Part shown: in pieces, positions 27,186 through 60,932 of the stretch
Numbering within the stretch: the stretch's first letter is position 1
Layout of the letters: the number at the start of each line of letters is the position of its first letter
Source of the DNA: Thiomonas sp. X19
Lineage (GTDB): Bacteria > Pseudomonadota > Gammaproteobacteria > Burkholderiales > Burkholderiaceae_C
NCBI RefSeq assembly: GCF_900089495.1
Contig: NZ_LT605203.1
Coordinates: 2,259,622 to 2,323,621 of the forward strand
Direction: 5' to 3'
DNA: 64,000 bases
The notes under the pieces: generated by a model
Told to the model about the DNA's origin: nothing
What the model saw: only the letters and a program-made list of their open reading frames with translations
Databases searched by the model: none
Made by a program: the position numbers and the translations under genes

Positions 27186-27188
27186 CAT

Positions 27189-27212: not shown

Positions 27213-27259
27213 ATCCAAGGCCATCGCACCTGCTGGCCGCCTTGGATTGGAGTCTCGAC

Positions 27260-43621: not shown

Positions 43622-43912
43622 AAACAGACGCAGCAACCCCGAATTCCTCCAAGTCCGTACAGGCGGAGTGACTCTCTGTTGGGAGAAGAACACGCGCCAT
43701 GTTTTTCGCGATTCGCCTGATGCAGCACATGACGCGATGAAGAAATGAGACCCTTTGAATCACCAAGTCGCTCGAGTATGGATGCCTACGAAGGCGGGCA
43801 CGATCAGATAAGATCGAAAGCTGCGAAGATTAGGCTATAACGTGTCGCTGGCGCCCGACTCGCTTGCGGCCGGGGCATATCGGCGACCTTATACCAATGA
43901 AAACAAGATTTG
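43622..43912. other. Gene-free stretch before the methylase
   Basis: About 290 bp with no recognisable gene, of mixed composition and lower GC near 43740-43900. It should carry the methylase promoter: TTATACCAATGAAAAC at about 43890 is a candidate -10 region, but I could not settle a -35. Confidence 0.35.
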
Positions 43913-45469
43913 ATGTTGCGGCAGGGTGAGATTCCCGTAGTCGACTTGTTCGCCGGGCCGGGGGGGCTTTGCGAAGGATTTTCGTCCCTCTTGGACGAGG
44001 AGGGGCGCCCGCGATTCGCCGTCAAGGTGTCCATCGAGAAGGACCCCGTCGCGCACTCGACCTTGATGCTGCGCGCACTGTTTCGCAAGTTTCCCAATGG
44101 GCAAGCCCCCGAAGCGTATTACGACTACGTTCGCGGAGCCATCTCGCGCGAGACGTTCATGACACACCGCGATATCCGCATGGCGGCGTGCGAGGCTGCT
44201 AGCGAGGCAAGGTGCGCCGAGCTCGGAGCCACGCCCCACGAGCAGGTCGACGCCTGGATAGCCTCGGCCATCGGCAAACGATCCGATTGGGTCCTCATTG
44301 GCGGGCCGCCTTGCCAAGCCTACTCGCTCGCGGGTCGATCTCGGCTGAGGGGCAAGGATCCCGTCGCGTTCGAAAGCGACAAGAGGCACTTCCTCTACAC
44401 AGAATACCTTCGGATCATCCAGCGGTTCATGCCCTCGGTCTTCGTGATGGAAAACGTCAAAGGGATGCTCAACTCGAAGCATGGTGGCAGCCCCATATTC
44501 GACAGAATCCTCTCCGACTTGACCGAACCCAAACCTGGGTTGAGCTATCAGGTGCGTTCTCTTGTGGTCGACGGCAACGAGCTCGACCCCGTCGACTTCG
44601 TCATCAAAAGCGAGCTCTACGGCATCCCGCAATGCCGGCACCGGGTCATCCTCTTCGGAATCCGATCCGACGTGGCCTTGGGGACAAGCGCGCTTGAAGA
44701 GACTCCCAAACAGTTCCTGCTTAGAAAAGCCAACGACAAAGTGAGCGTCAACGAAGCGTTGGCGGGACTGCCCGCGCTTCGCAGCCGATTGTCCAAGGAG
44801 CAGGATTCGCACGAGGCTTGGGTTTCGGCCCTACGCAAGGCTCCCGAGAGCCTCAAAGGCTGGCACTTGGAGCTTCGCGCCACGATTGAAGAGGCGATGG
44901 GAATCGCAGCGAGCGACGCGGAACTCCACATGTCGGCAGGGGCTAGGTTCATCCCGATGGTGAAAGCTCCGGGCGGGGCCATGCCTAGGGAGTTGCAGCA
45001 GTGGATTCTGGACCCAAGGTTAGGCGGGGTCATCCAACACGAGACCCGGTCCCACATGCGAACGGACCTCTACCGCTACCTCTTCGCGTCCTGCTTCGCC
45101 GAGGCCGTGACCTATGGACCAAAGCTTCGCAACTTCCCGCCCAAGCTTCTTCCAGATCATGTCAACATCGACGCAGAGGAGATCCCCTTCGCAGACCGTT
45201 TTCGCGTCCAAGTTGGCGGCGAGCCGTCGTCGACGGTCGTCGCACACATCAAGAAGGACGGGCACTACTACATTCACCCCGATCCGTCCCAATGCCGAAG
45301 CCTCACGGTGCGTGAAGCCGCCAGGCTTCAAACCTTCCCCGACAACTATTTCTTCGAAGGCACGCGCACCGAACAATATGGGCAGGTCGGAAACGCCGTC
45401 CCGCCGCTATTAGCCCGCAAGATCGCCAAGGTGATCCACAAGTTCCTGTCTTCCCCACGAGGCTTGTGA
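43913..45469 (+). CDS. C5 cytosine-specific DNA methyltransferase (Dcm family)
   Basis: A 518-residue m5C methylase. Motif I VVDLFAGPGGLCEGFSSL (residues 9-26), motif IV GGPPCQAYSLAGRSR with catalytic Cys at about 134, motif VI MENVKGM (179-185), motif VIII QCRHRVILFGIR, and motif X GNAVPPLLARKIA are all present. The target-recognition region between VIII and X is about 250 residues, so specificity cannot be read. TTG 43910 is in frame one codon before ATG 43913. It faces the six-gene minus-strand operon and ends with vsr on the other side, the usual pairing of a cytosine methylase with mismatch repair of its deamination products. Confidence 0.96.
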   Translation: MLRQGEIPVVDLFAGPGGLCEGFSSLLDEEGRPRFAVKVSIEKDPVAHSTLMLRALFRKFPNGQAPEAYYDYVRGAISRETFMTHRDIRMAACEAASEARCAELGATPHEQVDAWIASAIGKRSDWVLIGGPPCQAYSLAGRSRLRGKDPVAFESDKRHFLYTEYLRIIQRFMPSVFVMENVKGMLNSKHGGSPIFDRILSDLTEPKPGLSYQVRSLVVDGNELDPVDFVIKSELYGIPQCRHRVILFGIRSDVALGTSALEETPKQFLLRKANDKVSVNEALAGLPALRSRLSKEQDSHEAWVSALRKAPESLKGWHLELRATIEEAMGIAASDAELHMSAGARFIPMVKAPGGAMPRELQQWILDPRLGGVIQHETRSHMRTDLYRYLFASCFAEAVTYGPKLRNFPPKLLPDHVNIDAEEIPFADRFRVQVGGEPSSTVVAHIKKDGHYYIHPDPSQCRSLTVREAARLQTFPDNYFFEGTRTEQYGQVGNAVPPLLARKIAKVIHKFLSSPRGL

Positions 45470-45842: not shown

Positions 45843-46298
45843 CTACTTCGACATGCCGCTGATCTCTCCCGAAGCTGCATCGCCTTCGATCCAGCTTCGC
45901 AACTCTTGTTGGAGGGTTAAAGCCGCATTCAGACTTCGAGTCGCGCATTCCCAAACACAAAGGACACGCCAGCCCATGGCGCCCAATCTATCCATCGCAC
46001 GCTTGTCGCGCTCGACATTAGCTTGAAGCTTGGCCTTCCAGAAGTCGGGCCGGGTCGAGGGCTCCTTGGCGTAGCGGCATCCCTCGTGGGAATGCCAGAA
46101 GCAGCCATGGGCGAAGATGGCAATCTTGCGTCCGGGCATGACGATGTCGGGTGCGCCCGGCAAATCGCGTCTGTGGAGCCGAAATCGGTATCCAGCCGCA
46201 AACAGGGCTTTTCGAACAAGGATTTCTGGCTTCGTATCCTTGCCCCGAATGCCGGACATCATCCTGCTTCGGACCGCGGGCGAGACAACATCGGCCAT
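45843..46298 (-). CDS. vsr: Very short patch repair endonuclease Vsr
   Basis: A 151-residue Vsr that nicks next to T:G mismatches made by deamination of methylated cytosines. Catalytic Asp51 is in LPGAPDIVMP, and the FAHGCFWH motif places His64, Trp68 and His69 at the same numbers as the E. coli enzyme. N-terminal RSRMMSGIRGKDTKPE and C-terminal GWRVLCVWECA are typical. It is the last clear gene of the operon, 16 bp after the AIPR gene, and faces the methylase gene. Confidence 0.96.
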   Translation of the reverse strand: MADVVSPAVRSRMMSGIRGKDTKPEILVRKALFAAGYRFRLHRRDLPGAPDIVMPGRKIAIFAHGCFWHSHEGCRYAKEPSTRPDFWKAKLQANVERDKRAMDRLGAMGWRVLCVWECATRSLNAALTLQQELRSWIEGDAASGEISGMSK

Positions 46299-46313: not shown

Positions 46314-48089
46314 TCAGCCCGCCTTCACTTCGGGGATCTTGGACGCAGGAGCTGAGTAGCTCGCGCCCATCACGGCCTCCTTGCACTCGGGCCGCTTGGC
46401 CCATTCGGACACCATGCGACCGCCTGCGGAGACGTGCAGGATGTCGTTGACCTCGCGCGCCCACGTGGCGATCTGTGCCAGCAACTCCCGCGAGAGCGCC
46501 TGCTTGACCCAAATCATGTCGAGGTCGATACGACTCCCGAGCGTCGCTGCAAGCACTGAGACCGTGTAGGCGGTGACGTTGGCTTGGAACGCTTGGAACA
46601 TGGGGCGCAGAAGCTTCTGGGTTTCCCGGTAGATCTTGGCCTTGGCGATCATGGTCTTGTAATCGGCGGCCATCGGAAGCGGAACCTCCTGGCCATTGGC
46701 AGGAGTCAGCTCTGCCATGAAGCGGTCGAAATTCTTTTGGGACCCGAGGCTGACCACGTCGGGCTTGCAATCCCACGCGTTGATGTATTTGGCCAATTCG
46801 GTCTTGGTGATGCGCCGGGAAGTGGGGATCGCGTCCTTCAACGCTCTGAGCCTCGCCGGCGTCGTTCCCTCGCGAGCCAGCAGCGTGTTGTAGCTGCCGG
46901 CGGCGCGTTCGTAGAACCACTGGCTTGAGCCGTCTGGGCAATAGACGGTCCGAGAGAGCCTTTCGATCTCGACATGGAAGGGCTTGTTGGCCGAAAGGTC
47001 CGACTGGCGCACCGCATTTTGGCTGTTTGCATAGCGCGAGATGTCGGAGACCAAGGACTCCTCCTTGACGGAGTCCTGAGTCTTCATGACGATGATCTTC
47101 GCCGGGACCCGAACGTGCGAAAGGTCAGTGTCGGGATACTTCTTCTTGGTGAAGTAGAGCGACGCTGTAGTCTGCCCCCCGTTGACGATTTGCAGCCCTT
47201 GGAGCCAGGCGATGCCCTGCGAACCGTCATCGGTCCTGGCCATGCGCATTTCATCGGCCACGATCACGATTCCGTTATTGTAGGCCATGAATCGCCTGGG
47301 AGATTCGCGCAGGGTCTTCTGGATGCCGGCGTTGACCCCCTTGCCCTTGACGCTGAGGAACGAGCGGACGTTGGCCTCCAAGAGGCGCGCGCCGAACTTC
47401 TCGTAAAGCAGCCGCAAGGCCTCGCCCGGGATGGCCGTGAGGGCATAGTCGTAGTCGTCGCTGTCGCCGGGAACGAACACGCAGGGCAGAGGGGAACCGG
47501 AGACTTCGCCGAAATCGACCGACAGCTCGTCGCGTGGCTTGCCTTCGGAAGTATGCCGATGCAGTCGCTCAATGTCCATGACTTCAAGACGCACGGCCTT
47601 GCCGCCGACCTCGCGCGTCTGGAAACTCTTGGACTTGGCGACTCTGTCGGTGATCACGAAAACGCGGACCTGTTCGAGGTCGTCGTAGTTCGCTTGGATC
47701 GACTCTGCCAAGGATCTCACGTCGCTTGATGGGTCGAGCCTCGGCGCCATGCGGCCTTCCGCGCAAAGCGTCAAGAATTTCAAGCATTGCTTGAGCGCAC
47801 CAAGGGTCTCGGAATCGGGTATGGGCGTTGGGTCCTCGACACTTGCGTAGAGGCTCACGAATAAGTCAAGCTGGTCGTTGTCATCGTTAATTGCGTATCC
47901 GCTCAGGCGCAGGTTCGCGTTGCCGAACATTCCCTCGTAATGGCACTCGACTGGTTCGAAAGTCATGCCGATCTCGGCCATGTGGTCCATCACGATCCCG
48001 CAAAAGACCAGCTCCTCGTAGAGCCCCCCGTCTTGCATCTGGGCTCGGACCGACGCGTATATCTGTCGCAGGAATTCAGGCAAGTCCAT
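46314..48089 (-). CDS. AIPR-family (abortive-infection phage resistance) protein
   Basis: A 591-residue protein of the AIPR family, known from phage abortive infection and from restriction-like gene clusters. Recognised by GVNAGIQKTLRESPRRFMAY NNGIVIVADEM, LQIVNGGQTTASLYFTKKKY, and ISRYANSQNAVRQSDLSANK PFHVEIERLSR. The N-terminal part (about 1-220) is variable. It starts 3 bp after the DUF4420 gene and precedes vsr. The biochemical activity of AIPR is not established; DNA or RNA end binding or cleavage has been suggested for related folds. Confidence 0.92.
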   Translation of the reverse strand: MDLPEFLRQIYASVRAQMQDGGLYEELVFCGIVMDHMAEIGMTFEPVECHYEGMFGNANLRLSGYAINDDNDQLDLFVSLYASVEDPTPIPDSETLGALKQCLKFLTLCAEGRMAPRLDPSSDVRSLAESIQANYDDLEQVRVFVITDRVAKSKSFQTREVGGKAVRLEVMDIERLHRHTSEGKPRDELSVDFGEVSGSPLPCVFVPGDSDDYDYALTAIPGEALRLLYEKFGARLLEANVRSFLSVKGKGVNAGIQKTLRESPRRFMAYNNGIVIVADEMRMARTDDGSQGIAWLQGLQIVNGGQTTASLYFTKKKYPDTDLSHVRVPAKIIVMKTQDSVKEESLVSDISRYANSQNAVRQSDLSANKPFHVEIERLSRTVYCPDGSSQWFYERAAGSYNTLLAREGTTPARLRALKDAIPTSRRITKTELAKYINAWDCKPDVVSLGSQKNFDRFMAELTPANGQEVPLPMAADYKTMIAKAKIYRETQKLLRPMFQAFQANVTAYTVSVLAATLGSRIDLDMIWVKQALSRELLAQIATWAREVNDILHVSAGGRMVSEWAKRPECKEAVMGASYSAPASKIPEVKAG

Positions 48090-48091
48090 AT

Positions 48092-49096
48092 TCAGATTGC
48101 TCCCAATTTTTTCAACGCTTGCTCGATTCCGACGTCCGCTCCGGGTGTCTTGTCAAGGTCGATTTCATACTTGGCCCGCATGATCCCCTCAGGCACCCTG
48201 CCGTGCGTGAGTCGCGGAAAGTCTCCGGCGACCTCGACGATGCGAGTCCCGGCAGAAACGAACCGTCTTGGATATCTGTCGGTGTGGGCATCGAAGTAGC
48301 CCGCCGCCACGAGACGCTCGGAGAGCAGTCTCTCGGCCTCTGCGTCGCCCTTGATGGCATGCCTCATGGCGTCGACATGGTCCGGCAGGCTTTGGCCTGA
48401 CGCTATCTGACGCAGGCGTGCACTGGCAATGAACAGGGGCTGCCGGACCGAATCGTCCAATTGCTCCAAGGAGCCGATCTTGCTGGGAAAACCTTGCGCC
48501 GAAAGTGTCGCCTTCACTTCGAGCGACCCAGTCCCGATTTCGAAGTCCTGCGGGCTGTCAAGCGGCCCGACCCAGGATTCGATGGCGGTGGCGGCGGGGA
48601 CACCGGCCTTGATGATCGCGGCAAGCAACATCAGCTCGCCGACCAAGCCGATCTCCTCTTCGTGGCCCAGCGCCTGTGCGCCTTTGCGCATGAACTCTTG
48701 CCACGCTCGCACGCGCCCAAGAAATACCCGTAGGAGCCGCAGCTCGTCCGTGTTGCCTTCGGCATCGAGCGCGCCAGTCACGTCGCAAACCATCGATGAG
48801 AACAAGCCGAAGTCTCCAGAGTCCTTGCGGCTCAGGGCTAGCCAGGTTGTCCCCACCTCGTGAAGGTCAACTCGCTCGATGTTGAAACCTTGGCCCTCGG
48901 GCAGCTTTTCGGCAGACGGTATAGCCGCGGCCGGGAACGCAGCCATGAGGGCCTCCTCGTTTCCTGGGGCGCGTCGTCCCGCAGCGAGGCGGCACTTGCC
49001 TGCGGGCGCAATCGGTATGAACTGCCACCCATGGCGGTCGCCGGCTCCCGAGAGCGAGCTCCACGCGACATCGAACTCGTCACTCCGACGCGCCAT
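48092..49096 (-). CDS. PD-(D/E)XK motif nuclease (DUF4420)
   Basis: A 334-residue restriction-endonuclease-fold protein. The active-site pattern is seen as GELMLLAAIIKAGVPAATAI (helix), WVGPLDSPQDFEIGTGSLEV KATLS, where D, E and K of the D-x(n)-E-x-K motif fall in DFEIGTGSLEVKA. N-terminal FDVAWSSLSGAGDRHGWQFI matches the family. It overlaps the Z1 gene by 17 nt and is followed by AIPR after 3 bp. It is the likely DNA-cutting subunit of the system. Confidence 0.9.
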   Translation of the reverse strand: MARRSDEFDVAWSSLSGAGDRHGWQFIPIAPAGKCRLAAGRRAPGNEEALMAAFPAAAIPSAEKLPEGQGFNIERVDLHEVGTTWLALSRKDSGDFGLFSSMVCDVTGALDAEGNTDELRLLRVFLGRVRAWQEFMRKGAQALGHEEEIGLVGELMLLAAIIKAGVPAATAIESWVGPLDSPQDFEIGTGSLEVKATLSAQGFPSKIGSLEQLDDSVRQPLFIASARLRQIASGQSLPDHVDAMRHAIKGDAEAERLLSERLVAAGYFDAHTDRYPRRFVSAGTRIVEVAGDFPRLTHGRVPEGIMRAKYEIDLDKTPGADVGIEQALKKLGAI

Positions 49097-51971
49097 ATTC
49101 CTTCTCCCAATAGAGGTGATCGACCTTGTATTCGACCTTCACGCCATCGCCCCCTTCGGTGGAGGGGAAACTGATGGCGAAGGCCATGATGGGCCTGTCC
49201 CAGCCCTCAGGCACGGCCTCGCCGGCGCCTGAGGGCGCCAGCGGATAGAGCATCAAGAGACCGGGAGCGGGGAGCCCGACCGCGCCGGCCATGCGTGCGT
49301 TGCGGATCTGCTTGCCGCTTGGGGCCTCGTGCTCCTTCTCGCTTCGATTCCGCGCGGGATCGACCTTCCAGGTCTCCTTGGTCTTCTCCAAGGCCGCCTT
49401 CCATTGCTCATATTCGAAGTCGATCGCCTCATCGGCGGGGTCGGTGAGCACGCCGATCCGATAGGCGTCCTTGCCGCCCGTGTTGATGCGGCCCGGGAAC
49501 GTCGAGACCACGACGTCGTTGGCGAAGGCGAAGGGCTTGCCCGCCGGGCCTTCAGCAAGCAGGGCGATGTTCCAGCGAGTCAAATGGGCCGGCTGGAGCG
49601 AGTTCATCTTCTCGATGAACTCGGTGATGATCGAGCTGTTGATCCGCGAGAGGCCCGGAACTGTCTTGTAGCTTCGCAGGAATTCCAGAACGGCATCCGA
49701 GCCGACGTCCTTCCACAGCAGCGACCGCTTCCACGACTCGGCCTTCTGATCTCTCTTGCGCGCCGGATGCTCCTCTGTGGGCTTGCCCATTTGAGCGACG
49801 AGGGCCTTGGCCGCGTCCAAGTTACCTTCCAGGGTCTCCTCGTCGGTGAGGAACGTAATGGTCTGCGCCAAGCTTCCGCTGTATGAAAGTTTGAGCGTCC
49901 TCGCTGTGCGCATTTTTAGAGGTGAGGTCACCAGCATCACTGGGTGCGACTCCACTCTCAGGCCGTATTCGCTCGGCTTGGCACCCTGGGCTGCCATCGT
50001 GTCGAACTCCTCCCGAAGCTCCTCGGAGGCGTCGGCAATGTGTCCGAACCAATCCACAAGCTCTTGGGTTGTATAGAGCCGGCAGAGATCGATGTAGCCT
50101 GGTCGATAGCCGAACCAGCGGCCCATCTGCATCAGCGTGTCATACATCTTCGTCGTCCTGACGAAGTAGCTTGAACACAGTCCTTCGAGCGTCAGGCCGC
50201 GCGAGAGCTTCTCGCCGCCGATGGCGATGACTTTGAGCCCCTTGTCCTTGTTCTCGAAATAGTCGAGCGTGTCCTTGGCCGTACCGGTGATCTTGCGGAT
50301 GTGGATTTCGGCGAGCGTCTTGGGAAGCTGCTCGGCGATCTCATCCCAGCTCGGGATCTTCTGCGGCCCTCCGTCCTCTTGGACGACTTGGGCCATCGCT
50401 TCGCATGTGGGCACAAAATCGTCGTCCCACAATCGCTTGTAGGAGGCCAGGGTCGCCTCGTGGTCGACGCGGCGGGAGATCCGCTGTTTCATCCGTTTGA
50501 CATATTCCTCGACTTGCCGATGGACTTCCAACTGGACTCGGTTGTAGCGCGTGACGTGGATGAGCATCGATGAGTGCTCGGCACCTTGGCCCCTGCATGC
50601 CCGCGCGACGCAAGCCAGGACAAACGACTCGATGGCTTCCCTCAAAGACGGAGGGAGGATCTCTTGGCCCGCGTAGACGGGAATGTGATCCTTTTTGTGC
50701 TTGGGCAGCATCCAGCCGGTGGCCAATGGCTTGCCGTCGAGCTTGTCGACCTGGTCGGAAATGTCGCGCGCCAGGGGAAGGCCGCCCACGCGTCCGTTGG
50801 GCCCTTTGAGTCCGAAGACGCGCGCGGGGCCGACGTAGTTCGACGGAGCGGAGAGGTTCTTGATGAACGATTGCGGGAAGAGGTCTGGACCTTCGTCCTT
50901 CGTTTCATTCCTGCGATGGATGAAGATGTTGGCAAACGGGGTCGCGGTGTAGCCAACGTAGGCGGACTTGGAGAACGAGTAGAGGATTTTGCGGATGAGC
51001 CCGTTGATGGCCTTGGGCTGATGGTCGTCATCGGGGACGCCGTCCGCGCTGAAAAGCTGCTCACCCGTGTCGACCGAGGCGTGGTCGGCCTCGTCGTCGA
51101 TCACGAGCAAGGGCAGGTTCGTGACGATCCTGCGCCCTGTCACTGGATCGGTCGTATTGGAGACGTGGTGGCCCTGAATCCATTTGAGAAGACGCCCGAG
51201 CACCGTCTTGTTCTTCTTGACTACAAATAGCCAAGGACGTTCCTCGGGGGAGATGGCGAAGTGCTTCGCGATGGCGGTATTGAAGTCACCACCTTCCTCG
51301 CGAGTGGTCGCGCAATGCGGATGGATGGTGGGGTCGCTGTCCTCCCAATAGACACCAATGGGTTTTCCGGGCTCCCGGTTCGGGGAGGTTTCGTAGCCGA
51401 GGAAGGCCTCTTCGAGCCGGATCTGTGTTTGCGACCTCAGGTTGTTATGGAGCCCCGCCAGCACGATGATGATCTTGTAGCCAGCGTCGGCCGCCTTGCA
51501 GATGAGGGCCGAATAGCTGCTGGTCTTGCCCGATTGGACGTGACCGACCACGAGTCCCCGTCGGTCCCACGAGCCCTCGCGTTTGGGATCCTCCAAGAGT
51601 TCGAGAATTTCGTCGGTTGATTTGTCAAGCTGGTCGACGACGGTGGAGGCGAGCTTTCTTTCGAGATGTCGGGCGAGCCGTTCCCAATACCGCCATCCGG
51701 CCTTTCTTTCTGGTGTCAGCCAATCAACGTGGCCGGTGTTGTCCTTCATCGTCGTGTCGGCGGGCATGAAGTGGCTCATGCGGCGCACAAGCTCTGCTAG
51801 CGCAGCGTCAAAGTCGACCTCCTTGAGCTCGGCCTTGGCCAGAAGACTCATCGAGAGCTTCAGCTTTTCGGCAATCAGGACAACTTTCGATTTGTTCTCG
51901 TCGCTTTCGCCTCGCATGAGCGTCTGGGCGATGCTCACGACCCGCTCCTGCGGTGAATTCGCTTCCTCCAT
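49080..51971 (-). CDS. Z1-domain superfamily 2 helicase-like ATPase
   Basis: A 963-residue protein with the Z1 domain, typical of restriction-like operons containing MORC-type ATPases. Walker A LVVGHVQSGKTSSYSALICK (GHVQSGKT at residues 143-150), Walker B LLVIDDEADHASVD (DEAD at 293-296), then SAYVGYTATPFANIFI and KVIAIGGEKLSRGLTLEGLC SSYF, which resemble helicase motifs III and V/VI (ATPxA, RGL). It would translocate along or remodel DNA for the nuclease. Starts 11 bp after the GHKL ATPase gene. Confidence 0.93.
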   Translation of the reverse strand: MEEANSPQERVVSIAQTLMRGESDENKSKVVLIAEKLKLSMSLLAKAELKEVDFDAALAELVRRMSHFMPADTTMKDNTGHVDWLTPERKAGWRYWERLARHLERKLASTVVDQLDKSTDEILELLEDPKREGSWDRRGLVVGHVQSGKTSSYSALICKAADAGYKIIIVLAGLHNNLRSQTQIRLEEAFLGYETSPNREPGKPIGVYWEDSDPTIHPHCATTREEGGDFNTAIAKHFAISPEERPWLFVVKKNKTVLGRLLKWIQGHHVSNTTDPVTGRRIVTNLPLLVIDDEADHASVDTGEQLFSADGVPDDDHQPKAINGLIRKILYSFSKSAYVGYTATPFANIFIHRRNETKDEGPDLFPQSFIKNLSAPSNYVGPARVFGLKGPNGRVGGLPLARDISDQVDKLDGKPLATGWMLPKHKKDHIPVYAGQEILPPSLREAIESFVLACVARACRGQGAEHSSMLIHVTRYNRVQLEVHRQVEEYVKRMKQRISRRVDHEATLASYKRLWDDDFVPTCEAMAQVVQEDGGPQKIPSWDEIAEQLPKTLAEIHIRKITGTAKDTLDYFENKDKGLKVIAIGGEKLSRGLTLEGLCSSYFVRTTKMYDTLMQMGRWFGYRPGYIDLCRLYTTQELVDWFGHIADASEELREEFDTMAAQGAKPSEYGLRVESHPVMLVTSPLKMRTARTLKLSYSGSLAQTITFLTDEETLEGNLDAAKALVAQMGKPTEEHPARKRDQKAESWKRSLLWKDVGSDAVLEFLRSYKTVPGLSRINSSIITEFIEKMNSLQPAHLTRWNIALLAEGPAGKPFAFANDVVVSTFPGRINTGGKDAYRIGVLTDPADEAIDFEYEQWKAALEKTKETWKVDPARNRSEKEHEAPSGKQIRNARMAGAVGLPAPGLLMLYPLAPSGAGEAVPEGWDRPIMAFAISFPSTEGGDGVKVEYKVDHLYWEKEYGASE

Positions 51972-51982: not shown

Positions 51983-53506
51983 TCATGATTTTTGGGGTCG
52001 ATTCGGCTTCGCCACGAGACCTTGGTCGAGCGTCGCGATCAAGGCGGGAAAGTTCTGGAAGGGCTCGGTGTGCAGAAGTGCGCGCTTCGCCCCTTCGGGG
52101 CTCATCCTGCGGCGCCCGATCATGTCCACGTAGAGTGTCCTCAACACGCCGGCCACTTCGTCGCTTGGCTCGCCCGTGAATCCAGTCTGCGGCGTGTCCT
52201 TGTTCTCCGCCGTGTCGAGCCAGATGCGTTGGACGGGGACCGTCTCCTCGATGACTCTGAGCATGCTCTTGACCAGCGGCAGCAACTCGCCTGCGTTTTC
52301 CAACACCGCCGCGACCGAGGGATGGGTCTCGGCGATTCGATAGCGCATGCCGTGGCGCAACTTCTCGACGCTCCATGCTTGGTCGATAGGGATCTTGTCT
52401 TGGCGCGATGCCGGGGCTCCGCGACTGGCGAACACGCGGCGCGCCAGCTCGCGAGTATTCTCGGCTAATAGCGTCAGCCTGGGCTTGACCGGAACCGGGG
52501 GGCGTGCCGTCGATTTGCGAACGTCGATCTTCCACTCGGCATCAACGGTGTTGGGGATGTCCAGACGAATGCGGGCCAGTCGATGGGACTCCTCGCGATT
52601 CCATGCGCGCGGCGATCCCAGGCCCAGCCAGCCGCCAGCAAGCAGCAGCCGCTCGTTTCGATAGACGTAAAAGCCCTGTTGGGCTGTCCATCCCGCAGGC
52701 CCCGCATTGGCCTCGAATTCAGCAGCCGTGAGCCTATCCTTGTGTGGCAGCACATGGCATTGAACTTCAACCGTACCGCAGCTCGTGTGGATTTTGGCGA
52801 CCGGCGACGCCCACGGCTTGGCAGGATGCGCGGTCATGAAGGGATCCCACGGTGCCACGGGGTTTCCATTCAAAAGCAATCGCAGCCCCGCACGTGGGCC
52901 TTGCAGCAGGCGATGGAAGACCATGGCTAGGTGCGCGTCGACATCGTCGATGAGCGAGAGAAAGTCGTCGGGCTTGTAGCCGTCGGTGACGATTCGATCG
53001 AGCGTTTCCCAAAGGACAAGTGTTCCGGCATTCTTTCGATCCAGGGGAGCAAGGAAGGGCTCGGATCCGGGAGCGGGGCCTTCGAACAATAGCCACCCAG
53101 CGTCGGGGCGCACTGCGAGTTCTGTCAGATCCCAACGCAGGCAGCTTCGGACGCCGTTCTTGACGGTGGCGACGGTCAGCCGCCGGCATTGCGAAAAGGA
53201 CGCCGTCTTCAGTCCCATGCCGAAGCGGCCGAGGTCGTGGGCGGCGCGCGCAGCCAGGGGATTCTTGTCGCCCAGGCGCATGGCGCTTTCAAGCTCCGCG
53301 TCCGTCATTCCACATCCGTCGTCAAGGACGGTGATGCGGCTATTGCTCCCGTCCCACGCGAAATCGATGCGGACTTCTTTGGCCGCTGCTGAAATGCTGT
53401 TATCGACGATGTCGGCCAAGGCGGTCGCCGTCGAGTATCCGAGGCCGCGGAGCGATTCGAGCATTGCGAATGCACGAGGCGGTGTACTTCTCGTCTTCTG
53501 GCTCAT
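51983..53506 (-). CDS. GHKL (MutL/MORC-like) ATPase
   Basis: A 507-residue ATPase with the Bergerat fold: N-box TALADIVDNSISAAAKEVRI (Asn at 36), G1 ITVLDDGCGMTDAEL (62-67), and G2 DLGRFGMGLKTASFSQCRRL (about 92-110). Such GHKL modules act as ATP-gated clamps. In prokaryotes MORC/MutL-like members were found by Iyer and co-workers next to Z1 helicases and nucleases. ATG 53506 overlaps the sigma-fusion stop (ATGA), proving tight coupling. The C-terminal 300 residues are not assigned. Confidence 0.9.
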   Translation of the reverse strand: MSQKTRSTPPRAFAMLESLRGLGYSTATALADIVDNSISAAAKEVRIDFAWDGSNSRITVLDDGCGMTDAELESAMRLGDKNPLAARAAHDLGRFGMGLKTASFSQCRRLTVATVKNGVRSCLRWDLTELAVRPDAGWLLFEGPAPGSEPFLAPLDRKNAGTLVLWETLDRIVTDGYKPDDFLSLIDDVDAHLAMVFHRLLQGPRAGLRLLLNGNPVAPWDPFMTAHPAKPWASPVAKIHTSCGTVEVQCHVLPHKDRLTAAEFEANAGPAGWTAQQGFYVYRNERLLLAGGWLGLGSPRAWNREESHRLARIRLDIPNTVDAEWKIDVRKSTARPPVPVKPRLTLLAENTRELARRVFASRGAPASRQDKIPIDQAWSVEKLRHGMRYRIAETHPSVAAVLENAGELLPLVKSMLRVIEETVPVQRIWLDTAENKDTPQTGFTGEPSDEVAGVLRTLYVDMIGRRRMSPEGAKRALLHTEPFQNFPALIATLDQGLVAKPNRPQKS

Positions 53507-56007
53507 TTCCAAAGACCTTCTCCTGGCCAGACTACGAACCCCAAGCCGATAAGCTTCCGGATCATTTGGCGGTAGCGGTTGTCCGGAGTGTCGGCGATGT
53601 TGACCCATATCCTGCCGGAGGTTCCGTATCGGTCGTCGTCGACGATGAATCCCAACTCCTTGGCCTCCTCAAGGGCGAGATCCAGGTGCGACGAGGGGGC
53701 CGCAGGTCGGTCGGTGCCGCCGGCCGCGGTCGGGGCCGCTTCGCGCTTACCGGATTCGGTCGCTCGGGGCAAATCGGCTTCGACGTCCACGTCATCGCTT
53801 TCCGTCTCTGGCCGATCACCATAGGATTCAGGCAGACGACGCCCTTTAACTTCCCGCATCAGGGGCGCCGCCCGAGTTGGATGCTGCAAACGCTTGATGG
53901 CCTTCGCCTCGATCTGTCGGATGCGCTCCCTGGTCACTTCAAGCTGCATGCCGATTTCCTCGAGTGTCATGGAGTCGACCCCGAGACCGAAGCGCATCCG
54001 GACGACGCGCTCCTCCTTGCGGCTTAGTGTGGAGAGGATCCGATCGATCGACCCGATCAGTTCCCCCTCAGCAGTGATGTCCATGGGATCACGCGCAATG
54101 TAGTCGTCGCGGGCGTCAGCCGCGATCAGATCATCGAGGTCGAGCCCTTCGACGGACTCGGCGTCGTGGGCGATTCGAAGCAGGGCCTTGACCTTATCGG
54201 GTTCGATTCGCGCGCGCGAGGCGATTTCATCGAGCTCGGGCGGGCGTCCAGTCTCCCCCTGAAAGTCACTGGCGATCCGGGCGATCTTTTGCAATCGTTG
54301 ATGGATGTGAACGGGAAGGCGGATCGTCCTCAGCTTGTCGGCGATGTGCCGGCTGATGTGCTGGCGGATCCACCACGTGGCGTAAGTGGAGAATTTGAAG
54401 CCCCGCCGCCAATCGTAGAGTTCGATCGCCCTGAGCAACCCGAGGTTGCCCTCCTGGATCAAGTCGTCGAGCAGTTCACCGCTGTATAGCCCTTTCAAGG
54501 CCAAGCTGAACACGAGCTTCAAGTTGGCAATCGCCATGCGGCCGCGCGCGCTCTGATGCTCGCGAACCGCCTCGATGAACTCCACCTCGGCGACGCTGCC
54601 ACCTTCGCTCGCGAAGTCGGCGAGATCCACCAAGAAGCGCCGAGTCAGGCACAGGGACGCCAATGCAGATCGTGTTTCGCTCCAACTTGAACTGCCCTTG
54701 TTGGTGTCGATCGGCAGCTCGGAGAGTTTGTCGATCGAGATGAAGAAGTCGACGGCGTCTTGGGAATCGGGCGCGGCAGGCGACTCCAAATGAGCCTCCG
54801 GTTCAGAATGCGGCTCGGAGCCCTCGTCAGCGCCGATCAAGGTGAAGGCGGATGCAGACCCGACTTCGTCGTCGGCATCGGCTTCAACCTCGTGGGACTC
54901 AGATCGCGGCCCCAACGATATCCACGCGAAGGGCTTCTCCCCAGACTTGACCGCGCGGGCCGCATCCAGGGTCCTGCCAATGCCCCCTGGCCACGAAGCC
55001 AGCGCGTCCAAGGCCCGCTGCACGCTGTTCTCCATCGCTTGGGCCAGCTCGACCTCCTGCTCGGCGCTCAGGAGCTTCTCCCGTTGGATTTCGCGCTGGT
55101 AGATGCGAAGCGGCTCGTTGCGATAGCTGGTCAAGTCGCCAACGAAGGCCAATGCGTCGTCGACCTCGACCTCCTCGTCCGGTGCCTCCTCGGGGTTGAC
55201 ATCGACCTCGAAGTCGTCGAAAGGGGTTGAGTATTCGAATCGCTCGTCGAGCTCGGCTCCGAGATCGTTGAGCACCATGGTCAAAACGGTGATGACATCG
55301 CCCCTTGCCGCGCCGCGAGCATCATTCGAGAGGTTCTCGACAGCCATTGCTGGCACGCTGCCCTCGCGCAAGGCTCGCAACAGCATCAGGCGCAATCGCC
55401 TGCGCCATTCGGCGTCGTCCTCGCTCGGAAGCGGCGACGCCCTTTCGGGCAGGTAGGCTTCCAAATCGCCCCAATCCGCGGAGCTGTCGATCAGCTCAAA
55501 TTCCGAGATGGCCGTCTGGATTGCGATCGCGGCTTCGGAGACGCTCGGATCCGCTTCGGGAGGCGGCCGTTCGACTTCGGGCTTCCAATCGGACATATCG
55601 AATTCGAATCCGTCGTCGTCGAATACCTGCTCTTGGCTCGGGGATTCACCTGTCTCGGCTGGTGCATCGGGCGAGGCGGGGTCATGGGGCTCGGCAGTCG
55701 CGGGCCTGGCCGACCCGATAATGGCAGCAGCCTCAACCGACCCGGCCTCGATTGCTATGGCGTGGGCATCTCGTCCTTTGGAGTCCGTCAACGCGTAGTC
55801 AGCGCCTGCGTCGAGCAGAAGCTTGCAGATCGAGGCTTTGTTGCGCGTGGCAGCCAGCATGAGCGGAGTCATGCCATTGGCGTCGCGCGCGTCGAGGTCA
55901 TCGCCCCGCTCGATATGGATCTGAACGGCTCCCTCGGCGCCAGACATCACGGCCATCCTCAGAAGCCTGCTCAAGGGGTAAGCTTCGGAGCCAGTCAAAT
56001 GGCTCAC
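53503..56007 (-). CDS. Ankyrin-repeat/sigma70 fusion protein, first gene of the defence operon
   Basis: An 834-residue protein with a full primary-type sigma factor behind an ankyrin module. Ankyrin-like repeats lie at about residues 30-98 (RDANGMTPLMLAATRNKASI CKLLLDAGADYAL). A long acidic linker follows. Sigma region 1.2 is at about 286-330 (NEPLRIYQREIQREKLLSAE), region 2 at 490-560 (LIQEGNLGLLRAIELYDWRR, KFSTYATWWIRQHISRHIAD with the -10 recognising part), region 3 near 565-645, and region 4.2 at 680-710 (TLEEIGMQLEVTRERIRQIE). A further C-terminal domain (775-834) is not part of sigma factors. GTG 56007 has GGAGG 7 nt upstream and is preferred to an ATG 28 codons earlier. The protein is translationally coupled to the MORC-like ATPase. 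Confidence 0.93.
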   Translation of the reverse strand: MSHLTGSEAYPLSRLLRMAVMSGAEGAVQIHIERGDDLDARDANGMTPLMLAATRNKASICKLLLDAGADYALTDSKGRDAHAIAIEAGSVEAAAIIGSARPATAEPHDPASPDAPAETGESPSQEQVFDDDGFEFDMSDWKPEVERPPPEADPSVSEAAIAIQTAISEFELIDSSADWGDLEAYLPERASPLPSEDDAEWRRRLRLMLLRALREGSVPAMAVENLSNDARGAARGDVITVLTMVLNDLGAELDERFEYSTPFDDFEVDVNPEEAPDEEVEVDDALAFVGDLTSYRNEPLRIYQREIQREKLLSAEQEVELAQAMENSVQRALDALASWPGGIGRTLDAARAVKSGEKPFAWISLGPRSESHEVEADADDEVGSASAFTLIGADEGSEPHSEPEAHLESPAAPDSQDAVDFFISIDKLSELPIDTNKGSSSWSETRSALASLCLTRRFLVDLADFASEGGSVAEVEFIEAVREHQSARGRMAIANLKLVFSLALKGLYSGELLDDLIQEGNLGLLRAIELYDWRRGFKFSTYATWWIRQHISRHIADKLRTIRLPVHIHQRLQKIARIASDFQGETGRPPELDEIASRARIEPDKVKALLRIAHDAESVEGLDLDDLIAADARDDYIARDPMDITAEGELIGSIDRILSTLSRKEERVVRMRFGLGVDSMTLEEIGMQLEVTRERIRQIEAKAIKRLQHPTRAAPLMREVKGRRLPESYGDRPETESDDVDVEADLPRATESGKREAAPTAAGGTDRPAAPSSHLDLALEEAKELGFIVDDDRYGTSGRIWVNIADTPDNRYRQMIRKLIGLGFVVWPGEGLWK

Positions 56008-56268
56008 GCGGGCGCCTCCATCCAGACCTTCGGGGTTGTATCTTCCCCCGTTCGTCGATCGCGATCTCCAACGAGCATCGGCGCGTGGCACTCGTCATAG
56101 CCAGACAGCTCTGATGTCCCTGCGGCCATGTGGGCTCTGGAAGTTTGTGTTTCGGGAAATTCTACAGGCGTGGGAGCCGGCGGCACTTGTACAACCGCGC
56201 GGATGCAACCTTGCGATAGATCTGGCGATAGCAAAAGAATCTGGGCCTTCATATGGCCCTATACCGTC
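56008..56268. promoter_or_regulatory. Divergent gap between the defence operon and the Mrr fragment
   Basis: About 260 bp that must contain the promoter of the sigma-fusion operon. GGGCC-TTCATAT-GGCCC (56243-56259) is a perfect 5-bp inverted repeat with a 7-nt spacer, a possible operator. Near 56160-56180 an AT-richer stretch (minus strand TGTAGAATTTCC) is a possible -10, but no clear -35 is seen. Confidence 0.35.
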
Positions 56269-56583
56269 ATGGTGAGCGAAAAAATTGCGAAGGGCATCTT
56301 CATGACCACGGGCAAATACACGGCTGAGGCTCTGACGTTCGCACAATCCAACCCGCTGCAATTGATCGACGGGTTCCATTTCATGGAGAAGATTTTCAGC
56401 CTGCCGGATGACGCCAGGCAACGATTGCTGCATATTGCAACAGACGGCGACTACAAGGTGCCGTCCTGTCCGTCCTGCGGCATCAAGATGGTGTTCCGGG
56501 AAGGCGCGCAAGGTCGCAAGTCATTCTGGGGATGCCAGAATTTTCCGCGTGAGTGCAGACAGAGGTTTTTCGGCGGGAGATAA
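56269..56583 (+). pseudogene. 3' fragment of an Mrr-like restriction endonuclease with zinc ribbon
   Basis: From about ATG 56269 the reading VSEKIAKGIFMTTGKYTAEA LTFAQSNPLQLIDG matches the end of the Mrr_cat restriction-endonuclease fold (the GIFITT... ...LIDG strands). It is followed by a C4 zinc ribbon of topoisomerase type, VPSCPSCGIKMVFREGAQGR then FWGCQNFPRECRQRF. The catalytic D-x(n)-E-x-K part is missing, and upstream sequence in frame is not protein-like, so the 5' half was lost. Another remnant of an older restriction system. Confidence 0.7.
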
Positions 56584-56947
56584 AGTAACAGTAACGGGCA
56601 GCGTCGACAAATACGCATGTATTGCCCGAGTGCAAAGCCGCAGTGATCCAGCCCGTACGATAGGCATGCTTGACGCCCAAGACAGGTGTCTGACAGCAAC
56701 AAGAACACAAACCTGGGAGGCAGTGTGCATTTTGGTCATCACACCTTCGCCAAGACGGTGGACGAGCATCTGCGGGAAATCGCTGCGCTAGCTCGCAACC
56801 CGCAGACACTTGTCTTTCTCGACACAAACATCCTTGCCTATCTAGTCGGCCCTGCAAAATTCACAATCCGTTTTCCGTTCGTCCATAGCGTTGAATACAA
56901 CCCCATGGGCCGGCCGCGTCAGGATGGCCACGGTGGAGACCCAGTTC

Positions 56948-57499
56948 TCAGGCAAGCGCCTGAGCACGGCTGTGAGCGGAGCGTGAGGCATCGACAGCCC
57001 GCGCAGCCCGAAGCGCCTGGCGCAGTCGGCGCAAAAAAACCGGCCCCAGCCCCAGACGGGCGATGGCGCGCAGCAGCCAGCGCAGGTTGTAGCCTGCCGC
57101 GCAACTCAGGGCATGCAGCGCATCGCCCAATGCCCCTTGCAACCAGCAACGATCCAGGCGGTGATCGGCCTTCAAATGTCCGATGGCGGGTTCCACCGCC
57201 GAGCGGCGGCGCAGCCAGCCCCGGTGCTGCAGACTCATGCGCTTGAACTTGCCGCGGTGCAGGATGTGCTGGCCCGGGTTGTCGGCATCCACCCCGCGAA
57301 ACCCCAGGTCGACGACGACGTGCTGGATCGCCACTTTCCAGTCCTGCATCAGGATGGTGGCCTGCTCCAGTGTGGCGCGCAGGATATGGCCGTCATACGG
57401 ATTGCCAGGGAAGGTGCGCGCTCCCAGCATCAGCCCCTGCTGGTGGGAGACCACCACCGCGGTCTTCACACCAAACTCATACGGCTTGCGCGCCTTTCC
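56948..57499 (-). CDS. Transposase, 3' exon (IS5-superfamily)
   Basis: Carries GKARKPYEFGVKTAVVVSHQ, the second catalytic Asp in HVVVDLGFRGVDAD and the Glu in RRRSAVEPAIGHLKADHRLD. It follows the intron and joins exactly at a codon boundary with the 5' exon at 59707-60621; together they make 488 residues. Ends at 56948 shortly before the terminal repeat. Confidence 0.88.
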   Translation of the reverse strand, partial: GKARKPYEFGVKTAVVVSHQQGLMLGARTFPGNPYDGHILRATLEQATILMQDWKVAIQHVVVDLGFRGVDADNPGQHILHRGKFKRMSLQHRGWLRRRSAVEPAIGHLKADHRLDRCWLQGALGDALHALSCAAGYNLRWLLRAIARLGLGPVFLRRLRQALRAARAVDASRSAHSRAQALA

Positions 57500-57538
57500 G
57501 TCGGGTAAGAACACGCCGTTGCCGGCGTGTTCTCCCCT

Positions 57539-57574
57539 GAGAACCGTGCATGCGAGTTTCCCAGCACACGGCTC
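57539..57574 (-). ncRNA. Group II intron domain V (first intron)
   Basis: Minus-strand GAGCCGTGTGCTGGGAAACT then CGCATGCACGGTTCTC folds into the classic domain V hairpin near the 3' end of the intron. A GAACACGCCG-type hairpin (domain VI) follows. Confidence 0.9.
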
Positions 57575-57620
57575 AAGCCTTCCAGCAGCCCGAGATCGGA
57601 CCGGGTTCGTGACAACGGAA

Positions 57621-59138
57621 TCAGTGGGCATTTGCACGACGCTGGAAGTATGCGGTCCATGCTGGGTCGAACGGGTTGGCATCGCTGCGAACCTTCGTGT
57701 GGCGCTTGATCGGCAGCCCGGCCAGCCGGAACAGCATCGGCCTGAAGGCCAATTCCGGCGGCTGATCGGCGCAGGCAAAGATCCAGTCGCGCAGACCCTG
57801 GCGCTCGAAGTACCGCGCCTTGATCCAGCGAAGGGGCTTGCGCGGGTGGCGGCGTTTGGCCCACACCCACAGCTTGGTCCACACGAGATGATCGATCCGT
57901 GAGAAGGTCGCCGCGGCCACGATATGCCGGTGGTACATCGCCCAGCCCCGAAGGATCGGGTTGAGCAACATGATCACCTGCGCTTGTGTGGCAGCCTTGT
58001 TCTTTCCCAGCACTTCACGCACCTTTTTCAGGAGCGAAGCCACGCTCTTGCGCGCGGGCTTGATCAGAAGTTTGTTCCCGTACTTGCGCACGTTCTGCCC
58101 GAGGAAGTCGAATCCTCGGCAGATATGCGTGATCCGCGTCTTCTCGGGCGCCAGTTGCAGGCCGCGCCCCGCGAGGAATGCCTCGACGGCCGGTTTGACC
58201 CGCTGCTCCAGCAGCTCCCGAGTTGCGCCAGTCACGATGAAGTCATCCGCATAGCGGACAACGTGCGCCTTGGCAGGTTGTCGCGCGTTCGGGCTGCGGC
58301 CGAGGGCCGAGCGCACCGCGTCTTCGATGCCATCCAGCGCCATGTTGGCCAGCACCGGTGAAGCAATCCCGCCTTGCGGCGTTCCTGCTTCAGTGGGGAA
58401 CAGCACTCCTTGGTCGATGAATCCAGCACTCAGCCACTTGCGCAGAACGATCTTGTCCATCGGGATCTTCTTCAACAGCCAGTCATGACTGATGTTGTCG
58501 AAGCAGCCCCGGATGTCGCCTTCAAGAACCCACTGCGCAGAGTCGCGTTTGGCGAGTGCATTGAAGCAGTGCTCGATGGCATCGGCCGTCGATCGCCGGG
58601 GCCTGAAGCCATAGGAGTTCTTGTCGGCTGTCGTTTCCGCAACGGGGTTCAACGCCAGTAACCACAGCGCTTGCATGGCCCGGTCTCGCATGGTCGGAAT
58701 GCCCAGCGGGCGCTTCTTTCCGTTGCTCTTCGGGATATACACGCGCCGCAGTGGTCGCGGCTGATAGCCCCTGTGTGTCAGTGCTTGCGATGCCTTCATC
58801 TTCGACATCGGAGTCTTCCAGATCTTGCCGTCAACGCCTGCCGTCCTCTTGCCTTCGTTCTCCGTCACTCGCTTCACGGCAAGCAGCTTGCCGCTATGCG
58901 AGCGGGTCAGCAGGTGTTGCAAGGCCTGGACCTTGTTCCACCTGCCAGCCTGTGTGGCCTTGGCAATACGCGCCTGTAGCCGCGTGACCTCTTCGTTGAC
59001 CTGAGCCCAGTTGATCTGGTCCCAAGTCATCTCATCGGTTGGAGGCGCACCGGCATCCTCGGCACAGGCTCGCGCCCTTATCGCGGATACCGCCATCTGC
59101 CTTCCTCCTGATCGCGGTTTCTCAGTCTCTCTTGCCAT
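57621..59138 (-). CDS. ltrA: Group II intron reverse transcriptase/maturase
   Basis: A 505-residue RT. Visible parts: N-terminal QAGRWNKVQALQHLLTRSHS and TAGVDGKIW (RT0), RRVYIPKSNGKKRPLGIPTM RDRAMQ, SYGFRPRRSTADAIEHCF, VLEGDIRGCFDNISHDWLL, GTPQGGIASPVLANMALDGI, the catalytic VRYADDFIV, then the maturase X domain (NPILRGWAMYHRHIVAAATF). An HNH domain is not evident. It lies inside the intron and would help it splice and move. Confidence 0.93.
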   Translation of the reverse strand: MARETEKPRSGGRQMAVSAIRARACAEDAGAPPTDEMTWDQINWAQVNEEVTRLQARIAKATQAGRWNKVQALQHLLTRSHSGKLLAVKRVTENEGKRTAGVDGKIWKTPMSKMKASQALTHRGYQPRPLRRVYIPKSNGKKRPLGIPTMRDRAMQALWLLALNPVAETTADKNSYGFRPRRSTADAIEHCFNALAKRDSAQWVLEGDIRGCFDNISHDWLLKKIPMDKIVLRKWLSAGFIDQGVLFPTEAGTPQGGIASPVLANMALDGIEDAVRSALGRSPNARQPAKAHVVRYADDFIVTGATRELLEQRVKPAVEAFLAGRGLQLAPEKTRITHICRGFDFLGQNVRKYGNKLLIKPARKSVASLLKKVREVLGKNKAATQAQVIMLLNPILRGWAMYHRHIVAAATFSRIDHLVWTKLWVWAKRRHPRKPLRWIKARYFERQGLRDWIFACADQPPELAFRPMLFRLAGLPIKRHTKVRSDANPFDPAWTAYFQRRANAH

Positions 59139-59706
59139 GGAAGACCTGGCGGAAGTCAGCGCGCTTTCGCGCCGGGTGATGTCGCAACCCGTATCCGTTC
59201 GATTACAGAACGGCGTTCGCTTGCTCCGCTTTCCTTTACCCGCTGCGCCATCAGCCTTCCTTGCGGTTGGCCTGCCGTTGCCGGCGGCTCGTCGGGCTTA
59301 CCGTGTTCCGTACACATCACAACGCGTGGGGTCGGTCCTGCCTGTACACCGGTGGTCTTCCTGTCCGTGTGCGCCGTAGCAAAGGGAGGCGCAGCCGACC
59401 ACGTACCGTTTTGGTTCAAGCCTGTCAGCATCTTTGGCTTGTCGTGCATAACGATGCCTGCAGCAGTTCACTTCTGTTGACCATGCCACTCAGCCTGGCA
59501 CCCCATCCGCCTTGATGCTGGCAGGTGGCGCCGTTTCCTCGCGGAAGCCGACGCGGCCCAAGGGCCCGATACGTTGTCCCCGTGGCTTCACACGCCGCCG
59601 TTGCCAGCAACGCATGCACAGGTAGGCTACGGCCGACGGAACGGCCGGTCTCGTCACCAACCTCGTGAGCGGGCGAGACAATGATGTGTGCAACTTCACG
59701 TCGCAC

Positions 59707-60621
59707 CTTCCCGATGCACTCCACCTCCGGAGCGTGCAGGGCGTAGAGCTTGTTCTTGTCCTTCGGTTTTTGCGTGCGCACGCGCTCGGCGCGCTGCATC
59801 CACTGCTGCAGCGCCGCCAGCGCTTTGGGGCAAGAGTCGACGGAGGGAGATTGGGCCGCCGCCTGCAACTTGCGCTGCACCGCGCGCAGCACAATGCCCA
59901 GGATCGTGCGCTGACGCTTGATGCAGCGCTGCAGGCGGCGGAACTGCTTGGCATGGGCGTAGCCGCCAGCCTTGAAGCGCAAGCCTTTGCCTTCCTTGGC
60001 ATAGGTCTGCTTGAGCGCGATGCCCGCCTGTTTGGCTGCACGCACCACCTTGTGGCGCGCAATCTCCAGCAGGCGGCTGTCGGTGGGGTGGGCAACAGCC
60101 TTCTCCTGCACCGTGGTATCGACGATCACCCGCTGCAGTTCCTGGGGCTGCACGGCCTGGATCGTCACGGCGGTGTCGATGGTGGCTTTGAGCAGCTCTT
60201 CCAGCCCGTCTTCGCCCAGGGCGCGGCGAAAGCGCCCGATCTGGGTGGGGTCGCACGGCGGGCGATGCTCAAAGTACACCCGTCCGCTGAAGAACTGCCA
60301 CAGCACGTTCTCGCTCCAGCGCACCACCAGGTCCTCATCGCTCAGGTTGAAGGTGTGCTTCAGATACAGCAGGCTGATCATCAACCGCAGAGGCAGCCGG
60401 GGGCGTCCGGCGGGACTGGCGCCTGCGCCCACCAGCGACTGTGTAGGGCCGAACAGGTCGTGCCCTTCGAGGACTGCACCCTGCCGCGCCTGGTGTTCAA
60501 ACTTGACGGCCAGCGCCGCTTCCAACTGCGCCCACGGTAGCCGCGTGGCCAGCACTGCCAGGGGATCGTTCAGGTGGATCATGGCGTCGATGCGGCTGCG
60601 GAAAAAGTCGGGCGTGGTCAT
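59707..60621 (-). CDS. Transposase, 5' exon (IS5-superfamily)
   Basis: 305 codons from MTTPDFFRSRIDAMIHLNDP to PEVECIGK. Carries LPLRLMISLLYLKHTFNLSD, RPPCDPTQIGRFRRALGEDG and the first catalytic Asp in QRVIVDTTVQEKAVAHPTDS. The exon ends at a codon boundary against the intron. TTG 60627 is an alternative start. Without splicing, translation runs about 94 codons into the intron. Confidence 0.9.
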
Positions 60622-60932
60622 CCTCAAATCCCTCAGAAATCAGTTTCTCCAATAACGCTTCTCAAGGGATTCGGTGCACAGAAAAACAGAAAACTGTGAG
60701 CATTCATGCGGGCTGGCGGGGTTTTGCAGGGCCGACTATCTATACAAGCTTCACGCAGAAGCGCGGCGCGAGTTCTTCGTGTGGTCTGATCAAATAGCCT
60801 CCGAGAACCGCATAGCCATCCCGGCCTGGGCCGCGAATGAGTACCTTTCCCGTGTCACGTCGAAGGACCTCGACTCGTACACGCCGAAGAGCAGTCAGAG
60901 TAGGAATGCCAGTCACCCAGCACCCCCTCCAC

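Follow-up and report, generated by a model that had tools for sequence, protein, structure and literature searches.

An MZA anti-phage operon in Thiomonas sp. X19 whose sigma gene appears to encode ankyrin repeats in front of a nearly entire RpoD

A stretch of 64,000 nucleotides of Thiomonas sp. X19 (NCBI RefSeq assembly GCF_900089495.1, contig NZ_LT605203.1, positions 2,259,622 to 2,323,621 of the forward strand), hereafter the window, carries a run of six minus-strand genes that PADLOC identifies as MzaA, MzaB, MzaC, MzaD, MzaE and Vsr, and NCBIfam concurs (Table 1; E, expectation value). MzaB, MzaC, MzaD and MzaE are all matched by PADLOC, in this order and in one operon, and MzaA lies directly upstream of MzaB (PADLOC E 2e-68, NCBIfam E 4e-133). 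The NCBIfam model of MzaA also covers positions 2-91 of the window protein, its ankyrin part. An earlier note on this DNA, made from the letters alone, had described a sigma factor with ankyrin repeats as first gene of a defence operon, coupled by ATGA to a MORC-like ATPase, and these matches bear the description out.

Judged by its protein-family matches, the operon is an MZA system, already described and not unknown to science. The earlier note knew of no characterised system of this kind, which does not hold: models for MzaA to MzaE match all five genes, and passages of PMC9523054, citing Gao 2020, term mzaABCDE a validated anti-phage system and mzaA a sigma factor. A system new to science was ruled out on these grounds. 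Passages of PMC10855318 treat MZA for prevalence only. All five proteins fall below the NCBIfam equivalog cut-offs (MzaA 446 of 800 bits, MzaB 764 of 850, MzaC 1187 of 1500, MzaD 364 of 420, MzaE 911 of 1050), and the operon is therefore a divergent member; the cut-off was treated as a naming rule and not as part of the MZA definition. With this, the finding has moved from an unknown system to a named one and the question has narrowed to the role of the extra sigma, namely why a validated anti-phage system carries a nearly whole extra primary sigma behind ankyrin repeats.

Table 1. Features of the mza locus, in positions of the window; residues are those of MzaA
Feature	Positions	Strand	Basis or remark
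mzaA, ankyrin and RpoD-type sigma factor, 834 residues, GTG start	53503..56007	-	
three ankyrin repeats, residues about 13-101	55705..55971	-	
sigma region 1.1-like part, residues about 199-256	55240..55413	-	profile and some structure alignments
sigma region 1.2, residues 299-327	55027..55113	-	Pfam
sigma region 2, residues 494-559	54331..54528	-	Pfam and residue alignment
sigma region 3, residues 571-620	54148..54297	-	Pfam
sigma region 4, residues 658-709	53881..54036	-	Pfam and residue alignment
C-terminal domain, residues 774-834, helix-strand-strand-helix-strand-strand	53506..53688	-	in part of MzaA family only
TGTAGAATT element, about 158 nucleotides upstream of mzaA start	56158..56166	-	-10-like, no -35 seen
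mzaB, MORC/MutL-type GHKL ATPase	51983..53506	-	MzaB models: PADLOC E 2e-197, NCBIfam E 3e-230
mzaC	49080..51971	-	Pfam, PADLOC (E 0), NCBIfam
mzaD, PD-(D/E)XK protein	48092..49096	-	PADLOC (E 9e-59), NCBIfam
mzaE, AIPR family protein	46314..48089	-	PADLOC (E 2e-209), NCBIfam
Vsr-type endonuclease, final gene of run	45843..46298	-	PADLOC, NCBIfam
cytosine-5 DNA methyltransferase, convergent with vsr	43910..45469	+	NCBIfam dcm E 1e-39

The mzaA reading frame runs unbroken over 834 codons from its GTG to its stop, and its 3' end overlaps the start of mzaB by ATGA. The GTG, preceded by GGAGG, is the probable start; as an exact position it is only probable because two of the four homologues fetched begin further downstream, the leader being common to the other two. 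Under every candidate start seen, the ankyrin repeats are retained. A mis-start that would strip the ankyrin part, with the real start near region 1.2, was ruled out by Ank_2 matches across the MzaA homologues, and a pseudogene by the open frame and its conservation. A small minus-strand open reading frame (56004-56252; 82 residues, or 41 from an internal ATG) overlaps the mzaA start by GTGA and is a possible upstream frame coupled to mzaA; by eye, its first residues look similar to those at the same place in locus L010.

Pfam matched Ank_2 at residues 17-96 of the window MzaA, as well as sigma-70 regions 1.2, 2, 3 and 4. In an AlphaFold2 model built with 72 sequences, the mean predicted local distance difference test (pLDDT) score was 79 and the predicted template modelling score 0.46, with a pLDDT of about 96-98 in the ankyrin part, 91 residues of which superpose on the designed 3ANK protein at 1.2 A. 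The two or more consecutive repeats that define the ankyrin fold were thus found by Pfam, in the model and by structure comparison, and the single 834-residue frame holding ankyrin repeats and four sigma regions is as first described.

The likeness to RpoD extends over most of the protein. A profile of 72 MzaA sequences aligns unbroken with RpoD over residues 3-620 of chain 9gdo_F (470 bits), against about 449 bits for RpoD chains that lack region 1.1 (4ljz_F). In some rows of the structure comparison, model residues 202/203-723 align to residues 6/7-613 of E. coli sigma-70; most sigma rows begin only at region 1.2, with residue 285-298. The long rows have a root-mean-square deviation of about 13 A, as expected with several freely placed domains. 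It is on the profile alignment to RpoD and on some structure-alignment rows that the region 1.1-like part rests. Pfam gave no Sigma70_r1_1 match in the window MzaA, and when this part alone was compared profile to profile it reached E 0.0015 over 53 columns, the unrelated C-terminal domain reaching 0.0007 over 22 columns and a reversed control 0.59. The linker (residues 101-198) is acidic, with 27 D/E vs 4 K/R. Pfam detected the non-conserved region in 9 of 38 and 4 of 37 MzaA rows but not in the window MzaA (no Sigma70_ner match), where it is shortened relative to RpoD. MzaA thus reads as ankyrin repeats, an acidic linker and a nearly entire RpoD. The host's own RpoD is encoded elsewhere (L001).

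The residues by which a primary sigma works are also present. In E. coli sigma-70 numbering, we take W434 and Q437 to be -10 readers and R584, E585, R588 and Q589 to be -35 readers, and the equivalents of D403 and Q406 are presumably the core-binding residues of the sigma-70 literature. Equivalents of D403, Q406, W434, Q437, R441, R451, R584, E585, R586, R588 and Q589 occur without exception in the 57 rows of a set anchored on the region 2 pattern, from which 17 of 74 rows without that pattern had been dropped. In two unselected alignments of 38 and 37 rows, both of which include the window, D403, Q406, R584, E585, R588 and Q589 are invariant, and W434, Q437, R441, R451 and R586 are invariant in the 38-row alignment and reach 90% or more in the 37-row one. 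W433 (53 of 72 rows) and T440 (36 of 72) are less strict, the window having W and S there; this 72-row count selects on region 4 and is circular for residues of that region.

That the DNA-reading residues are kept is an argument that MzaA truly uses promoters and does more than mimic RpoD. Phage proteins of the AsiA or Gp2 kind seize sigma-70 or RNA polymerase, and MzaA could be a decoy or guard that mimics RpoD, catches such proteins and by the catch releases MzaB-E. Its RpoD layout, region 1.1-like part included, and its presence as an extra copy beside the host's own RpoD would suit this role. Nevertheless, a pure decoy would need protein-facing surfaces only, yet the DNA-reading residues are kept almost without exception, and a literature search showed no described link in the titles and abstract openings among the papers listed; we consider such a decoy unlikely. 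The RpoD-like promoter reading would also agree with a back-up sigma that sustains host or mza transcription once a phage disables RpoD, as would the ankyrin part and the acidic linker that RpoD lacks. However, MzaA has diverged little from RpoD in regions 2 and 4, so that escape from RpoD-binding phage proteins is not evident, and this role appears quite unlikely.

Beyond region 4, the extra C-terminal domain that had been noticed from the letters was recovered by modelling. It comprises 60 residues, with a helix, two strands, a helix and two strands, and a pLDDT of 86 when modelled alone; structure searches gave no clear structural match for it. It is present in the window and in part of the family only: with the TRERIRQ motif as starting point, the protein stops within 50 residues in 45 of 71 loci and has a tail of over 110 residues in 20 of 71, two rows lacking the motif having been left out of the count. 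Three of the 20 long tails bear a GcrA-type helix-turn-helix after region 4 (L078, residues 860-906; L081, 1019-1066; L089, 759-806), with three GcrA matches in the MzaA of L081.

How widespread the sigma gene is was assessed in the best 80 of at least 560 MzaB relatives, found by scanning a genome collection with an MzaB alignment. A sigma open reading frame lies directly upstream of mzaB in 71 of these 80 loci. Among the nine others, three stop near a contig end (L035, L039 and L054, the last with a piece of the sigma gene), L064 is partial, a methyltransferase gene takes the place of the sigma in L043, L046, L050 and L058, and L082 has neither. Vsr-like matches were found in 58 of the 80 loci, Dcm-like matches in 53 and both in 48. 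With two plasmid loci added to the 71, 73 MzaA proteins were available, and Ank_2 was matched at E 0.001 or better in 68 of them (35 of 37 and 33 of 36, window excluded), some alphaproteobacterial matches falling under Pfam's own cut-off. A home-made ankyrin profile likewise found 68 of 73, and one of the five MzaA without a match (L048) is truncated by a contig end. The annotated E. coli MzaA (WP_021567406.1, 683 residues) has ankyrin repeats above cut-off, and among 5,426 complete E. coli genomes, 55 contain a counterpart of the Enterobacter operon L056 that spans 80% or more of it. In a protein homologue search, Ank_2 was counted by the author in 118 of 120 homologues among the matches listed, the window's own included; this search favours ankyrin-bearing proteins because its search words were drawn from the first 500 residues. 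No text describing ankyrin repeats in MzaA was found in a search of open-licence PMC papers. From these family matches, the ankyrin-sigma fusion is the norm of the MzaA family, so that ankyrin repeats, regarded in the earlier note as no usual part of a bacterial sigma, are usual here, and the co-occurrence of ankyrin repeats, sigma and MORC-type mzaB that it had raised is frequent.

Conservation was compared across 67 complete five-gene systems, one of them that of the window. Mean pairwise identity was 0.51 in sigma regions 2 and 4, 0.39 in the ankyrin part, 0.42-0.59 in MzaB-E and 0.19-0.26 in the linker, middle part, region 1.2, non-conserved region and region 3. Distances in the sigma and ankyrin parts correlate with those of MzaB (r 0.84 and 0.73) and of MzaC (0.80 and 0.65). 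The ankyrin part thus appears fairly conserved and seems to evolve with MzaB-E. Being better conserved than most of MzaA and tracking MzaB-E, it argues against a phage-protein sensor in the ankyrin part, as had been proposed, an argument that is only moderate because this part is less conserved than MzaB-E.

The same conservation and co-evolution would fit a promoter-targeting subunit, in which the ankyrin repeats bring MzaB-E onto RNA polymerase at promoters and phage DNA is attacked where it is transcribed. The kept DNA- and core-contact residues, the overlap of mzaA and mzaB in 20 of 71 loci (16 of these by 4 nucleotides, from the tblastn start of MzaB) and the GcrA-type domain in 3 of 73 MzaA speak for it. 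Against it, a Pseudomonas clade persists without MzaA and host promoters would require protection; promoter targeting is rather unlikely. More specifically, it is doubtful that a captured primary sigma was turned into a targeting subunit that docks on RNA polymerase while its ankyrin repeats hold MzaB-E for promoter-targeted restriction.

The history of the sigma was read from a midpoint-rooted MzaB tree whose 95 tips comprise 76 sigma-bearing and 15 sigma-less systems and 4 of unknown state. Sigma-bearing systems form one clade (local support 0.88) nested among sigma-less ones, and one loss is seen, in four Pseudomonas loci (support 1.0). The sigma-less outgroup consists mostly of viral contigs. 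Of 13 MzaB loci on viral contigs, two have an MzaA with ankyrin repeats (L091, L092) and 11 have no MzaA, although one of the latter, L090, whose DNA is the same as that of L039, ends too near mzaB to tell. Two of the ten sigma-less viral-contig loci carry a helix-turn-helix regulator near mzaB: a small Cro/C1-type regulator just ahead of mzaB in L098, and a divergent helix-turn-helix gene with an IrrE-like peptidase in L100. Because the sigma-bearing clade is nested in sigma-less relatives, and in view of the regulators at L098 and L100, the tree suggests that a primary sigma was captured once by a kind of system that otherwise works with different regulators or with none. It is very improbable that MzaA is an inert passenger or a decaying gene with no MZA role: its absence from the four Pseudomonas loci would be in keeping with this, whereas its open frame, its conservation, its co-evolution with MzaB-E across the 67 systems and its single acquisition, kept across the clade with one loss, are not.

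Taken together, the kept DNA-reading residues and the conserved ankyrin part favour a gated, dedicated initiation factor: at about even odds (roughly 0.5), MzaA starts transcription on behalf of its own system and is under the control of a conserved partner bound by the ankyrin repeats. We infer that MzaA may initiate transcription, that the operon would be its target and that the ankyrin repeats would gate it. As an RpoD copy with three ankyrin repeats in front, it would bind core RNA polymerase and read RpoD-like promoter DNA. The ankyrin repeats would bind a conserved partner, either from the Mza set or a conserved protein of the host, that restrains or releases MzaA, and expression of the mza operon would thereby be raised fast or sustained during infection. 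A conserved partner is preferred over fast-changing phage proteins since the ankyrin part is fairly conserved. The MZA family match, the kept residues, the position of the sigma gene, the co-evolution, the regulators at L098 and L100 and an element upstream of mzaA are in favour of this dedicated initiation factor.

This element, TGTAGAATT, looks like a -10 element without a -35 as far as its letters and position tell. It is the top 9-mer in 18 related upstream regions (8 of 18, the largest count in shuffles being 4), regions that were hand-picked after the motif had been noticed in an alignment. An exact copy of its core, GTAGAAT, is present in 9 of 68 upstream regions against 0.75 expected (shuffle maximum 4) and in none on the opposite strand, with seven of the nine occurrences at -157 to -169. 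CTGTAGAATTT was found once in the whole genome, at the mzaA upstream region. Three other groups of upstream regions gave no trusted motif; an alphaproteobacterial 9-mer beat the shuffles and may be coding.

Nevertheless, several observations weigh against MzaA as a dedicated initiation factor of its own operon. The TGTAGAATT element was both discovered and counted in one set of loci, shows no enrichment in the rest of the window, and its exact core is absent from three further readable loci (L104, L105 and L106, the last repeating L031), L104 having by eye a one-mismatch form nearby; a fourth locus, L107, offered no anchor that could be read. No enrichment of consensus -35/-10 promoters was seen upstream of mzaA (mean z 0.03 over 68 regions, z 0.4 in the window, each region scored against 25 Markov shuffles with any N replaced by A), so that no self-promoter is demonstrated; z exceeded 1.5 in four regions (L013, L016, L030 and L081), L013 being the best with 2.8. 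Since the promoter-reading residues match RpoD, MzaA alone is not expected to select other promoters. MzaB-E correlate more strongly among themselves (0.80-0.95) than with MzaA, and all these correlations are without an unlinked control gene. Finally, the four Pseudomonas MZA loci have no sigma gene in the sequence stretch examined, so MzaA is not indispensable. The kept residues, the ankyrin hallmark, the single acquisition and the natural sigma-less relatives make the role of the sigma directly testable.

Further along the window (4285-43254) lie genes for an integrase, a topoisomerase, a relaxase, VirB4, TrbL/VirB6, the anti-restriction protein ArdC, VirD4/TraG and an S26 peptidase. Given the integrase, relaxase, VirB4, TrbL/VirB6, ArdC and VirD4, the MZA operon seems to be carried as cargo by an integrative conjugative element, which apparently bears both an anti-restriction gene and the MZA operon. 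Inside this element were also found a gene for a YadA-like trimeric autotransporter (27170-29782, plus strand) and, within the TrbL/VirB6 gene, an ARAGORN transfer-RNA-like match with an incomplete anticodon (26410-26492, plus strand) that is probably spurious. Divergent from mzaA lies what is left of an Mrr-type restriction endonuclease gene, with a topoisomerase-type zinc ribbon (56128-56583, plus strand); in E. coli DX6, an incomplete restriction endonuclease gene likewise lies ahead of mzaA (L142, 5228-5605). Beyond it, a PIN-domain gene is seemingly split over 56686-63983, with a PIN_8 match in 62922-63983 and the upstream pieces assigned to the same gene by eye. It is interrupted on the minus strand by two reverse-transcriptase reading frames, 57621-59138 with a group II maturase domain and 60951-62684, and by a DUF772 transposase (59425-60627).

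What is new here is the ankyrin part as a hallmark of the MzaA family and its evolution with MzaB-E, the near-entire RpoD with near-invariant promoter-reading and core-binding residues, the single clade of sigma-bearing MZA systems within sigma-less relatives, and, in the window's relatives, the C-terminal domain and the conserved upstream element. Compared with RpoD, the window MzaA shares regions 1.2, 2, 3 and 4 and the promoter-reading residues, but it begins with ankyrin repeats followed by an acidic linker, its non-conserved region is shorter and a C-terminal domain is added; its gene belongs to a defence operon, in a host that also has an RpoD of its own. With the known MZA system, the window shares all five core genes in the same order and a sigma-70 with N-terminal ankyrin repeats, also present in the annotated E. 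coli MzaA. It differs in the vsr and dcm genes that lie alongside, in proteins under the NCBIfam cut-offs and in the added C-terminal domain of MzaA, the E. coli-like L056 copy stopping 44 residues past the start of the region 4 motif. Passages of PMC2292703 describe a system with a similar MORC-type ATPase, helicase, Vsr, cytosine methylase and AIPR, and the words sigma and ankyrin are absent from its main text. In the same way, the Type II system of Miller et al. 2022, as presented in passages of PMC9523054, has an MzaB-E-like core with AIPR and a methyltransferase, but is about 20% identical to mzaBCDE and includes mzaA in a few members only, whereas in the window mzaA is present and the MZA models are matched.

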